DNA of 5,118 nucleotides from Nitrospinota bacterium (GTDB taxonomy: Bacteria; Tectomicrobia; Entotheonellia; J063). The position numbers and the translations under genes were made by a program. Shown here piece after piece: positions 1,466 to 5,118 of this stretch; the stretch's first letter is position 1; each line of letters begins with the position of its first letter. The DNA lies in NCBI GenBank assembly GCA_003696125.1, contig RFHZ01000594.1, forward strand, positions 1 through 5,118, in the 5' to 3' direction. The notes under the pieces are model-generated. The model saw only the letters and a program-made list of their open reading frames with translations. It was not told the origin of the DNA and made no database searches.

Positions 1466-1474
1466 AGGAGGAGG
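1466..1474 (+). promoter_or_regulatory. Ribosome-binding site of grdA
   Basis: AGGAGGAGG ends one base before ATG 1476. This very strong purine tract marks 1476 as the grdA start, over the in-frame ATG at 1323 that lies inside grdC and would add an unrelated N-terminus. Confidence 0.85.
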
Positions 1475-1475
1475 C

Positions 1476-1940
1476 ATGAAGCTAGAAGGGAAAAAGGTCA
1501 TCGTCCTCGGTGAACGGGATGGGGTACAGGGGAGCGCCATTGCCCGGTGTGCCCAGAGCGCCGGAGCCGAAGTGGTACTCGATGTCACCTATTGTTTTGT
1601 CTGAACCGCAGCTGGGGCACTCGACCTGGAAGGTCAGGCAGAGATTAAACGGACCGCAGAGAAGCATCAGGATGATGACCTGGTTGTCCTCCTGGGAACA
1701 CCCAATGCCGAGAGCAGCCGGCTGTATGCCTTGACCGTGACCGAAGGGGATCCGTCCTGGGCCGGTCCTCTGGCCGGCATCTCACTCCGGTTACCGGTGT
1801 ACCACATCATCGAACCGGAGATTAAGGCACAGATCGACCCGGCCGTATACGAATCACAGGTAGGGCTGGCCGAGATGGTGCTGGAAGTAAACGAGATTTC
1901 CCAGGCACTGCAGGAGGTGCGGGCACGGCTGCAGAATTAA
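1476..1940 (+). CDS. grdA: Glycine/sarcosine/betaine reductase protein A, selenoprotein (GrdA), with in-frame UGA = Sec43
   Basis: This is one 154-residue gene read through TGA 1602-1604 as selenocysteine, with the true stop at TAA 1938-1940. GrdA is the small cytoplasmic selenoprotein shared by glycine, sarcosine and betaine reductases. Its selenol accepts the carboxymethyl group from protein B and passes it to protein C (GrdC/GrdD); the oxidised Cys-Sec pair is re-reduced by thioredoxin. Visible marks are the N-terminal nucleotide-fold-like start KLEGKKVIVLGERDG (2-16), the active site YCFVU (39-43) with Cys40 three residues before Sec43, then TAAGALDLEGQ. After Sec the frame continues with VVLLG, a TEGDPSWAGPLAGISL segment, VYHIIEPE and a helical C-terminus, all as in GrdA. 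Length matches the family (about 155-160 aa). Start chosen at ATG 1476 for its strong ribosome-binding site. A conventional caller would split it at the TGA. Expression requires SelA, SelB, SelC and SelD encoded elsewhere. Confidence 0.96.
1602..1604 (+). other. UGA selenocysteine codon of grdA
   Basis: The TGA sits exactly where GrdA proteins carry selenocysteine (CFV-U-TAAGA). Protein similarity to GrdA continues in the same frame on both sides with no frame shift, so this is recoding and not a nonsense mutation. Confidence 0.95.
1617..1640 (+). promoter_or_regulatory. Candidate bacterial SECIS stem-loop
   Basis: GACC 1623-1626 pairs with GGTC 1632-1635 around the loop TGGAA. Below a C/A mismatch, T1621-G1637 and C1620-G1638 extend it weakly. 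The loop guanines are at +24 and +25 after the UGA, near the spacing known for the E. coli fdhF SECIS, where SelB contacts loop bases. The lower stem is weak, so the exact fold is uncertain; some SECIS is required here because UGA is read as Sec. Confidence 0.6.
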
Positions 1941-1965: not shown

Positions 1966-1986
1966 CTGAGGGAGCTATTCTCTCAG
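1966..1986 (+). promoter_or_regulatory. Small hairpin between grdA and the solute-binding protein gene
   Basis: CTGAGGGA 1966-1973 pairs with TCTCTCAG 1979-1986 (one G-T pair) around the loop GCTAT. The following bases, GATCGTTGTTGCTT, are only moderately T-rich. It may be a weak terminator or processing site that separates the grd and transporter messages; the fold is seen, the function is not proven. Confidence 0.3.
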
Positions 1987-2018: not shown

Positions 2019-3569
2019 ATGAGACCGAAGCCTCTGCTTATCGGTGCCACCGTATTCGTCTTTATCGCCGCGCTGGTGCTTATGCCCAAAACGGCACCGG
2101 CACAACCAACGGGTACGATCACCATCGCCCTGGGGACCGAGCCGACTACCCTCGACCCGCAACTGCGGGATGAGGGACCGCTTCGCTACACCATGAATCA
2201 GGTTTACGAGGGCCTGGTAGCCCGCCATCCCCGAACCATGGCGATCATCCCAGAGCTGGCCGAGCGCTGGGAGCTGGTCAACAACACCACCTGGCGCTTT
2301 TATCTCCGTAAAGGGGTGCAGTTCCAGGATGGGGAGCCGTTTAATGCCGAAGTGGCGGCTTTTGCCTTCAACCGTGCCGTCAATCCGGAGTACGCTTCCC
2401 AGTACTCGTCCTACTGGGTCGGTTTCAAAGAGGCCCGGGTCGTCGATGAGTACACGGTGGATATCCTCACCTCCCAGCCGGTCCCTAATCTGCTGGGAGG
2501 CCTCTATTTCATGAAGATCGTCCCCAAGAAGTGGGTCGAGGCCAATCCGGATCGCATCCTTACCGAGGCGAATGGTACCGGCCCTTACAAGCTGGTTCGC
2601 TTCACCAAAGGGGACCGGATGATCCTGACCGCCAACCCGACCTGGTGGGGAGACTGGACCACCCTGCCGGCCAAAGATGTGGTCTTCCTGTTCCGACCAG
2701 AGGAAGGGGTACGCGTAGCCGCGGTAAAGGCGGGTGAGGCGGATATGGCGGCTCATCTGGGAGGGGAGATCGCCCGGCTGGCCCCCAAATTTGTTCATAA
2801 GCCGGTACTGGAAGTCTTTTTGATCCGGCTGAATTACAAGACCAAGAGCTGTGCCTGGCTCAACGATGTGGAGGTGCGCAAGGCGCTGAACTACGCCATA
2901 GACCGGAAAGGAATCAGGGAAAGCCTCTTTCAGGGGATGGCTTCACCATCCTATGGACAGCCTTTCCTGGAGGTTATTCCGGGATTTAACAAGGAGTTGA
3001 AAGACTACCCGTACGATCTGGACAAGGCCAGGGAGATCATCAAGAAGAAGGGGCTGGTAGGGAAAGAGATTGAGCTGTTGGGCCTGGAAGGTCGTTGGGT
3101 CAAGGATCGAGAGCTGACCGAAGTGCTGGCTTCCCAGTTAAGCCTCTCCGGGTTAAAAGTCAGACCCCGGATCGTTGAATACCGGACCTGGCTCGATAAC
3201 CTCTTTGGGGTCAGTTCCAAAGAGGAAGCGGTGCGGGAGAGGGTACCGTGCCTCCAGTTGACCAATCACAGCAACGAGGCCATGGACCCTGACCGGACCC
3301 TCTCCTTCTACATCTGGGATAAGGGGCGAGGTTCTGGAAAACCCCGGGTGCCGGCCATCGATGAGCTCATCGAAACGAACCGGTCTGAGCTGGATCCGGA
3401 AAAGCGGGCGGCAACCTATGCCAGGATCCTGAAGATGCTCTACGATGATGCGCATGCCTATGTGGCCCTGCTGGCTGCAGATGTGGTGCATGGGTTGAGT
3501 GAACGACTGGAGTGGGAACCACGGCTCGATGACCTGATCCTGGTCAAGGAGATGAAGCTCAAGAAGTAA
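2019..3569 (+). CDS. ABC transporter solute-binding protein, DppA/OppA family (SBP_bac_5), periplasmic
   Basis: This 516-residue secreted binding protein presumably captures a peptide-like solute and delivers it to the two permeases encoded just downstream. Residues 1-28 form a Sec signal peptide: Arg/Lys start, a hydrophobic core (about 6-22) and a T-A-P-A end before Gln29. There is no lipobox Cys, so the product is probably free in a periplasm. Family marks are TEPTTLDPQ near the mature start, the YEGLVARHP segment, PELAERWE, LRKGVQFQDGEPFNA, GTGPYKL (186-192) followed by ANPTWWG, a VRKALNYAIDRKGI segment and DPD at 423-425. The start is ATG 2019, preceded by GGAGGGGG at 2007-2014; the upstream TTG 1992 would put nine extra residues before the signal peptide. 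Length fits the family (500-540 aa). The bases before DPD do not resemble the W-x-G-D pattern of dipeptide-binding DppA, so the ligand is open. The gene lies 78 bp after grdA. Confidence 0.93.
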   Translation: MRPKPLLIGATVFVFIAALVLMPKTAPAQPTGTITIALGTEPTTLDPQLRDEGPLRYTMNQVYEGLVARHPRTMAIIPELAERWELVNNTTWRFYLRKGVQFQDGEPFNAEVAAFAFNRAVNPEYASQYSSYWVGFKEARVVDEYTVDILTSQPVPNLLGGLYFMKIVPKKWVEANPDRILTEANGTGPYKLVRFTKGDRMILTANPTWWGDWTTLPAKDVVFLFRPEEGVRVAAVKAGEADMAAHLGGEIARLAPKFVHKPVLEVFLIRLNYKTKSCAWLNDVEVRKALNYAIDRKGIRESLFQGMASPSYGQPFLEVIPGFNKELKDYPYDLDKAREIIKKKGLVGKEIELLGLEGRWVKDRELTEVLASQLSLSGLKVRPRIVEYRTWLDNLFGVSSKEEAVRERVPCLQLTNHSNEAMDPDRTLSFYIWDKGRGSGKPRVPAIDELIETNRSELDPEKRAATYARILKMLYDDAHAYVALLAADVVHGLSERLEWEPRLDDLILVKEMKLKK

Positions 3570-3600
3570 GACGGCTACATGGCAGTATTGAGACGTTATT

Positions 3601-3633
3601 GAGGCTGGGTTCCTTCAGCAGGGATCCAGCCTC
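3601..3633 (+). promoter_or_regulatory. Strong 14-pair hairpin between binding-protein and permease genes
   Basis: Bases 3601-3614 pair with 3620-3633 around the loop TCAGC; twelve pairs are Watson-Crick and two are G-T. It begins 31 bp after the binding-protein stop and is not followed by a T-run. In many importer operons a stem-loop at this place stabilises the binding-protein message, so that it exceeds the permease message; that role is inferred here. The hairpin also argues against translation starting at TTG 3599, which lies at its foot. Confidence 0.6.
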
Positions 3634-3661
3634 CTCATGCCGTTTATGGTTATCAGGGATA

Positions 3662-3673
3662 GAAAGGGGTGAG
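3662..3673 (+). promoter_or_regulatory. Ribosome-binding site that places the DppB-type permease start at ATC 3677
   Basis: GAAAGGGGTGAG is the only convincing Shine-Dalgarno tract in the 3570-3700 gap. The in-frame codon at suitable distance is ATC 3677, immediately before the conserved S-V-Y-I-F-R-R-L start. No in-frame ATG or GTG exists nearby. Confidence 0.5.
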
Positions 3674-3676
3674 ACT

Positions 3677-4594
3677 ATCTCTGTCTATATCTTTCGCCGT
3701 TTGAGCCAGGGGATCATTGTTCTCATTGGGGCCCTGGTCATCGTTTTTTGCATTACCAGCCTGTTTGCCGATCCGGCCAAGCTCATGCTCCCCATTACCT
3801 CGAGCCAGGTGGAGTACGAGCGCCTCAAAGCCAAGCTCGGGTTCTACGACCCGGCATATATCCGCTTCTTGCGCTTTGCCTGGGGAGCGATACGGCTGGA
3901 TTTTGGGAAATCGCTCTGGCAGGGGGTCTCGGCGATGCAATTGGTCCTGGAGAGGTTGGGAGCCACCGCCATGCTCTCCTTCAGTGCCATCGGGATCGCC
4001 ACCCTCATCGGGGTTCCCTTTGGGAGCCTGGCCGCTGTCCGGCCTCGCTCCAAACTGGATCGCTTCTGTACCATCTCCTCCCTGACCGGGGTTTCTATCG
4101 CCGATTTCTGGCTCGGCTTGATGCTCATCCTGCTCATTGCCGTGGATCTTCGCCTGCTGCCGACCTCGGGGTACGGCTGGAAAGAGCTGATCTTACCGGC
4201 TCTGACCCTTTCTGCGCGTCCCATAGGTCGCATCGCCCTGGTGACCCGTTCTGCCATGCTCGATGAGCTGAATCGTCCCTATATCACCACTGCACGTTCC
4301 AAAGGGCTCTTTGAGCGGAAGGTGGTCTTCTCACATGCCTTGAAGAATGCTGCCCTGACCGTGGTTACCCTCTGCGGGTACGAGATAGGGCGGATCTTTG
4401 CCGGGTACGCGGTCATTGTGGAGACGGTCTTTGGCTGGCCAGGCATCGGCCAGCTCGCTGTCCAGTCGATCTCGAATGACGATCTGCCTGTGGTGCAGGC
4501 GGTGGTGTTTGTGGCGGCCTGTATCGTTGTCATCCTCAACATCCTGATCGATCTCTGTTATGCCTTTTTAGACCCGCGTATCCGCTATACCTGA
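3677..4594 (+). CDS. ABC transporter permease, DppB/OppB family (start codon non-canonical)
   Basis: This is one of the two inner-membrane channel subunits of a peptide-type importer. From ATC 3677 it has 305 residues, a normal length for DppB. The N-terminus SVYIFRRLSQGIIVLIGALV matches the usual family opening (x-x-Y-I-x-R-R-L) leading into membrane segment 1. Further hydrophobic segments follow around the TAMLSFSAIGIATLIG, FWLGLMLILLIAV and VVFVAACIVVILNILIDL stretches. The cytoplasmic EAA loop, which docks the ATPase, is YITTARSKGLFERKVVFSHA from residue 202. The end DPRIRY is typical. Stop is TGA 4592-4594. The only ordinary in-frame upstream start is TTG 3599, which adds 26 residues without family likeness and sits at the foot of a strong hairpin; I prefer 3677 despite the rare codon. 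A miscalled or mutated ATG is an equally good explanation. The gene lies in the same operon as the binding protein before it and the DppC-type gene after it. Confidence 0.88.
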   Translation: MSVYIFRRLSQGIIVLIGALVIVFCITSLFADPAKLMLPITSSQVEYERLKAKLGFYDPAYIRFLRFAWGAIRLDFGKSLWQGVSAMQLVLERLGATAMLSFSAIGIATLIGVPFGSLAAVRPRSKLDRFCTISSLTGVSIADFWLGLMLILLIAVDLRLLPTSGYGWKELILPALTLSARPIGRIALVTRSAMLDELNRPYITTARSKGLFERKVVFSHALKNAALTVVTLCGYEIGRIFAGYAVIVETVFGWPGIGQLAVQSISNDDLPVVQAVVFVAACIVVILNILIDLCYAFLDPRIRYT

Positions 4595-4604
4595 TTCCGG
4601 TTTT

Positions 4605-4656
4605 CACCACGGAGACACAGAGGATCTCCTCCCCTTTTCTCCATGTCTCTGGGGTG
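4605..4656 (+). repeat. Imperfect palindrome, possible dispersed intergenic repeat
   Basis: CACCACGGAGACACAG at 4605-4620 pairs with CCATGTCTCTGGGGTG at 4641-4656 with a few mismatches, and the helix continues to about 4624/4637 around a pyrimidine loop. The string CACCACGGAGACACAGAG resembles a palindromic intergenic repeat I recall in several environmental bacterial genomes; that is memory, not a search. It fills much of the 129-bp gap between the two permease genes, an unusually long gap for DppB-DppC pairs, and has no T-run after it. Confidence 0.45.
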
Positions 4657-4713
4657 ACCTGGACAGAGCAATGATAGGAGGAGCGATACCGTCATATACC
4701 AGACAGGGGGAAC

Positions 4714-4717
4714 GGAG
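4714..4717 (+). promoter_or_regulatory. Ribosome-binding site of the DppC-type gene
   Basis: GGAG, within GGAGAAGGGA, lies six bases before ATG 4724 and supports that start. Confidence 0.6.
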
Positions 4718-4723
4718 AAGGGA

Positions 4724-5118
4724 ATGGAGCTCAAGCAAGACCAACCCAAAACGCTTTCCGCAGAGGCGATCCAGCTCCAGGGAAGCCTCAGGACCCGGTT
4801 AAAGGGGTTTTGGTGGATGCTCAAGGCGGATAAGTTTGCCATGGTCGGGCTGTTTTACCTGCTGGCCTGGTGCTTCATCGCTCTCTTTGCCGACTACATT
4901 GCTCCGCATGATCCGACCTTTCAGACCCTGGGCAAACGACTCACCCCGGGCTTCTGGTCGGCAAGGGGGTCCATGACCTTTTTCCTGGGGACCGATCATC
5001 TGGGACGGGATGTGCTCAGCCGGCTGCTCTTTGGCAGCCGGGTTTCCATCATTGTGGGACTGAGCACGGTTGCCCTGGCCGGTACGCTGGGTACACTTCT
5101 GGGCTTGATCTCCGGGTA
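4724..5118 (+). CDS. ABC transporter permease, DppC/OppC family, 3'-truncated by window edge
   Basis: The first 131 residues of the second membrane channel subunit are present; the family is usually about 280-320 residues, so more than half lies beyond the window. The N-terminal 28 residues are polar. A DppC/OppC N-terminal domain follows: FWWMLKADKFAMVG leads into membrane segment 1 (about 41-60), then the IAPHDP motif (59-64). The hallmark LGTDHLGRDVLSRLLFGSR is at 88-106, leading into the transmembrane domain (from about 107, SIIVGLSTVALAG). The pairing with the DppB-type gene upstream is standard for heterodimeric peptide importers, and one or two ATPase genes (DppD/DppF type) would be expected just downstream. 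Start chosen at ATG 4724 because of its ribosome-binding site and normal N-terminal length. Substrate cannot be read from this part. Confidence 0.94.
   Translation, partial: MELKQDQPKTLSAEAIQLQGSLRTRLKGFWWMLKADKFAMVGLFYLLAWCFIALFADYIAPHDPTFQTLGKRLTPGFWSARGSMTFFLGTDHLGRDVLSRLLFGSRVSIIVGLSTVALAGTLGTLLGLISG

Follow-up and report, generated by a model that had tools for sequence, protein, structure and literature searches.

The window considered here is the whole of contig RFHZ01000594.1 (G000:C950), 5,118 nt in length, from a 4.18 Mb bin in 990 contigs. The host is an uncultured Entotheonellia bacterium and a relative of the sponge symbiont 'Ca. Entotheonella'; other members of the same class include two single-contig 'Candidatus Entotheonella' chromosomes (OX639990 and OY282375). 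The window carries a truncated grdC, a complete grdA with an internal UGA codon and genes of an ABC transporter (Table 1).

Table 1. Features of the window, with their positions, strand and the basis for each assignment
Feature	Position	Strand	Basis
grdC, component C beta subunit, KAS III/thiolase fold; truncated 5' by the contig edge	2..1366	+	NF040746 match
GGAGGAGG, Shine-Dalgarno-like, precedes grdA	1467..1474	+	direct sequence reading
grdA, selenoprotein A, 154 aa with Sec43	1476..1940	+	read-through translation; PF04723 and NF040748 matches
UGA codon read as selenocysteine	1602..1604	+	TGA in 16/16 homologues; Sec machinery in genome
SECIS-like hairpin, stem 1620-1626 / 1632-1638, loop UGGAA, 15 nt past UGA	1620..1638	+	synonymous lock, paired cells
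Terminator-like hairpin in the gap between grdA and the ABC transporter, weak tail	1966..1986	+	consensus scan: 1 found, 0.5 expected
ABC transporter substrate-binding protein, SBP_bac_5 family	2019..3569	+	PF00496, 229 bits; a link to grdA is a possibility only
ABC transporter permease, Opp/Dpp/Nik B type; the actual start probably lies more internally	3599..4594	+	PF00528, 122 bits
ABC transporter permease, DppC/OppC type, truncated at the contig end	4724..5116	+	PF12911, 44 bits

When TGA is read as selenocysteine (Sec) the frame of grdA holds a single internal TGA, codon 43, and yields the motif C40-F41-V42-U43. The read-through protein matches all 147 positions of PF04723 (204 bits against a cut-off of 22, E 1e-60) and scores 209 bits against the NCBIfam equivalog NF040748 'reduct_selen_A', for which the curated cut-off is 130; both halves belong to the same family in the same frame, and an unaided six-frame search recovered the same place with '1 TGA' inside. 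No credible match to GrdA was found in the PDB. The TGA is present at codon 43 in 16/16 codon-aligned homologues from Entotheonellia, Chloroflexota, Thermoleophilia, Coprothermobacter and Vagococcus, whose frames are undisturbed before and after it, an alignment that excludes a chance origin for this reading. As the first permease ORF of the window itself terminates at a TGA (4592-4594), there is no general reassignment of the codon. On these comparisons the gene is a genuine GrdA, an ordinary member of its family, and the in-frame UGA is its Sec codon. A preliminary description of the locus had proposed just this, with the correct coordinates, and both the alignment to the GrdA family and the undisturbed frames of the homologues bear it out; its further statement that standard annotation would miss the gene was overstated, given that NCBIfam holds an equivalog model for GrdA. 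Known selenoprotein families are recoded by modern annotation pipelines.

The strongest synonymous constraint in the codon alignment of grdA (n=16) lies in the region just 3' of the UGA, where Leu49 is CTT in 11 of 12 CTN codons (expected pairwise identity 0.25), Asp50 is GAC in 15/16 (expected 0.53) and Gly53 is GGT in 13/13 (expected 0.30). The bases locked at these three codons form the stem of a SECIS-like hairpin, and across the alignment 90.2% of the stem cells are paired, against 10-56% for slid controls, with few (2) compensatory changes. In the window itself the stem is broken by a C-A mismatch at 1622/1636, and single-sequence folding of this copy does no better than that of shuffles, so that the case for a SECIS is a comparative one, and it is on the homologues rather than on the window alone that we take the hairpin as a SECIS. 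A scan of the window with Rfam gave 0 matches, which is not informative regarding SECIS elements.

It had also been proposed that the host decodes selenocysteine, and a search of the genome for selA, selB, selC and selD recovered all four. Contig C102 carries both selB (386 bits) and selA (526 bits), with a second, partial version of selA on C184; selC, the tRNA-Sec gene, lies on C328 (74 bits against a cut-off of 47) and is called tRNA-SeC with anticodon TCA by ARAGORN; selD is a fragment at the contig edge of C684, with its own in-frame UGA in CAGUASK. With selA, selB and selC accompanied by a Sec-containing selD, the host, as read from its genes, decodes selenocysteine. It is scarcely conceivable, then, that codon 43 of grdA is a nonsense mutation or sequencing error in a relic or pseudogene: such a reading would draw on the interrupted frame and on a hairpin with one mismatch that folds no better than shuffles, but the conservation of the UGA between intact flanking frames in every homologue rules it out, and the machinery for reading it is present.

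SelD is likewise a selenoprotein with CAGUASK in the Entotheonellia genomes G003 and G004, as in the host (L046, L047 and L050), while the best SelD matches of G001 and G002 start with MRCGGCGAKVG, without CAGUASK. Homologues of SelA and SelB have been reported at a RiPP gene cluster of Entotheonella (PMC12858407); as selA and selB are adjacent in the genomes studied here, the homologues at that cluster may simply serve ordinary Sec decoding.

The bin has a completeness of 94.8% and a contamination of 7.98%, and this last figure, together with the occurrence of SelA in two partly overlapping versions, might suggest that the contig is a contaminant from which nothing follows for the host. In a maximum-likelihood tree of GrdC, however, the window groups with the Entotheonella chromosomes and the F1-120 bin (support 100/99), outside all other groups. 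The contig thus fits the bin despite the contamination, and a foreign origin is very improbable. The two SelA versions, on C102 and C184, are slightly different, which points to a mixture of strains in the bin.

The GrdC fragment upstream of grdA scores 617 bits against NF040746 (cut-off 450). Its Cys231 (fragment numbering, in 'GFCCG') is invariant in 16 GrdC sequences, is active-site-like and aligns with the active-site Cys of KAS III, and an AlphaFold2 model of the protein (pLDDT 83) resembles enzymes of the thiolase fold such as FabH and OleA (Foldseek 1e-10; Z about 20 across some 257 residues). On the other side of grdA, a binding protein and Opp/Dpp-type permeases lie directly downstream (2019-5118) in this contig only; the first permease scores 270 bits against NF045470, below the cut-off of 350. 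The transporter was considered as a partner of grdA and rejected, and its genes are not counted in the grd system, because homologues of the binding protein and first permease were found near grdA in none of the 17 related loci searched and because a terminator-like hairpin intervenes; a tie between the two is a possibility only.

Component B of the host is represented by a GrdB fragment on C138, which follows two acyl-CoA dehydrogenases and an M20 peptidase, and a GrdE fragment on C930, both of which stop short of the Sec and the cleavage site. In the Entotheonella relative L019 grdB, grdE, grdC and grdA form one cluster, and GrdB of L018 and L019 has its own UGA, in UGTCNRC. GrdB of SAR202/Dehalococcoidia (L016, L017, L022, L023 and L025) keeps the Sec, with UGTSTRSG in place of UGTCTRCG, so that both redox cysteines of UxxCxxC are Ser. 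The motif GNCVSACDKN, which holds the processing cysteines, is present in 3/3 classical GrdE proteins and in 0/12 of the variant GrdE-type sequences that span the site; judged by these sequences, the variant alpha subunits are without the cysteines for the pyruvoyl group used for glycine. The component-B proteins of the variant come nowhere near the cut-offs of the models specific to glycine, sarcosine or betaine, and the gene neighbours of extra GrdB/GrdE copies in the host and a relative, which in the relative include cytochrome c and HpcH/HpaI aldolases, gave no pointer to the substrate. One Entotheonella chromosome (G001:C1) has three GrdB/GrdE pairs (203980-206349, 1576174-1578683 and 2938934-2941433) for one GrdA and one GrdC, which suggests that several substrates feed one GrdA in this organism.

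In clostridia GrdD is the alpha subunit of component C and releases acetyl phosphate, a role tied to its Cys359. In the known pathway component B forms a carboxymethyl selenoether that is carried by GrdA, component C converts it to an acetyl thioester, and release by phosphate yields acetyl phosphate for use by acetate kinase (PMC10298544, PMC13188914). Four classical genomes (G040, Coprothermobacter, Vagococcus and Bacillota) were compared with 13 variant genomes (five Entotheonellia, five SAR202/Dehalococcoidia, Yes70-20, one Thermoleophilia and G052), which were gathered by similarity to the GrdA of the window, a choice that favours one clade; one of the 13, G003, is without GrdA or GrdC. 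The GrdD model NF040747 scores 586 bits in G040 and has no match in the five Entotheonellia or in G052. PF02504, which catches PlsX and GrdD alike, finds more than one gene, PlsX-like and GrdD-like, in each classical genome but a single one in 11 of the 13 variant genomes (G001-G004, the five SAR202/Dehalococcoidia, Yes70-20 and Thermoleophilia), and the nine of these that were scanned are PlsX above cut-off. The host and G052 have no PF02504 match; as even PlsX is missing from the fragmented host bin, its lack of GrdD rests on its relatives, and GrdD was not found in the two single-contig chromosomes of the class. Acetate kinase (AckA, PF00871) is present in 4/4 classical genomes and was found in 0/13 variant ones. 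At the level of gene content, GrdA/B/C without GrdD and without acetate kinase is thus shown for Entotheonellia and related marine and soil lineages. The trait coincides with one split on the GrdC tree, variant against classical (support 100/100), so the association of GrdD with AckA is a single evolutionary contrast and not many, and the link between them is suggestive.

These results do not support the earlier claim that the host can run reductive Stickland-type metabolism, as GrdD and acetate kinase, which carry out its two final steps, were found neither in the host nor in four relatives of its class, and component B of the relatives is without the pyruvoyl cysteine pair needed for glycine. 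It would seem quite unlikely that an ordinary Stickland glycine reductase is present whose GrdD and acetate kinase were missed through incompleteness of the bin or divergence. GrdA and GrdC do score above their equivalog cut-offs, and in a bin of 990 contigs PlsX went undetected too, but both genes are also missing in the two single-contig relatives and in every other variant genome, while 11 of the 13 variant genomes have a PlsX, and the pyruvoyl cysteines of GrdE are missing as well.

The reading that we favour, and consider fairly probable, is that of a glycine/sarcosine/betaine reductase variant without GrdD and AckA, in which the acyl group probably passes from GrdC to CoA and not to phosphate; the host and its marine relatives would then probably run an altered glycine-reductase reaction. 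The Sec of component B would attack a small substrate with a leaving group on its alpha carbon, betaine-like or another activated acetate, in what would not be ordinary glycine chemistry, and component B would pass the carboxymethyl group to Sec43 of GrdA. Reduction of GrdA would follow and leave the two-carbon unit bound to the KAS III-like Cys of GrdC as an acetyl thioester. From there GrdC would transfer it to coenzyme A, and central metabolism would receive acetyl-CoA in place of acetyl phosphate for ATP. The class of substrate, the flow of the acetyl group and its acceptor are what we infer here. With GrdD missing, coenzyme A is the most likely acceptor of the acetyl group from GrdC; acetate kinase is gone too, and GrdC is similar to enzymes in which acyl groups move between CoA and an active-site Cys, so that CoA transfer would be the simplest completion of the pathway. 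This step is drawn from fold and gene absence only, and an unrelated protein could replace GrdD.

Such a replacement, by which acetyl phosphate or free acetate would still be made, we regard as unlikely. The product of the variant system is predicted here from gene content, and several ORFs near grdA in the relatives belong to no NCBIfam family; no conserved extra gene, however, accompanies grdC-grdA across the loci examined, and with acetate kinase missing acetyl phosphate would have no usual outlet. Beyond the CoA-linked variant proposed for the host, it is possible, though we suggest it only tentatively, that Entotheonellota, SAR202-type Chloroflexota and Thermoleophilia share an acetyl-phosphate-free branch of glycine reductase, in which GrdC would act as a KAS III-type acyltransferase to give acetyl-CoA, with non-glycine B components and in respiring bacteria.

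The variant shares with the clostridial GrdABCDE system the CxxU of GrdA with its UGA-encoded Sec, the Sec in GrdB, GrdC, a SECIS-like element after the UGA and SelABCD in the host. It differs in being without GrdD, acetate kinase and the GNCVSACDKN processing site of GrdE, in its gene order grdC-grdA and at position 346 of GrdC, where every variant row has His and 4/4 classical rows (two of them near-identical) have Gln; when GrdC is aligned by profile with a FabH-like protein the alignment stops short of the second catalytic residue, and this position is therefore not claimed as the FabH His. A closer likeness in component B is found in the fluoroacetate system FarACEB of Cloacibacillus porcorum, where FarE is without pyruvoyl cysteines, FarB has Sec without CxxC, as do those variant beta subunits with UGTSTRSG, and a shared GrdA/GrdC is fed (PMC10838667); grdD and ack, neither of which was found in the variant genomes, are both present in C. 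porcorum. Among NCBIfam models the variant alpha subunits score highest with GrdG (190-210 bits), ahead of FarE (120-159 bits), with both far below cut-off. As in betaine component B (GrdH/GrdI), the alpha subunit is not a pro-protein (GrdI, PMC10838667), but the GrdH match of 279-358 bits is so far below the cut-off of 775 that a substrate cannot be assigned. Dehalococcoidia glycine reductases have been reported from serpentinite springs, in a paper whose main text makes no mention of GrdD (PMC9751293), and cultured SAR202 are aerobic (PMC10444878). Our search of the open literature, with most subscription literature outside it, found no report that pairs Entotheonella or SAR202 with glycine reductase, and the variant system without GrdD and AckA appears to be undescribed in the literature searched.

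In the textbook view glycine reductase belongs to strict anaerobes, conserves energy and has acetyl phosphate as its product. The retention of GrdA/B/C in sponge symbionts and marine SAR202 relatives, with the Sec of both GrdA and GrdB kept and GrdD and AckA gone, suggests that this selenium chemistry is put to a different use there. In the absence of GrdD it also becomes possible to test on which subunit of component C the acetyl group is carried, and whether or not phosphate is an obligatory acceptor.
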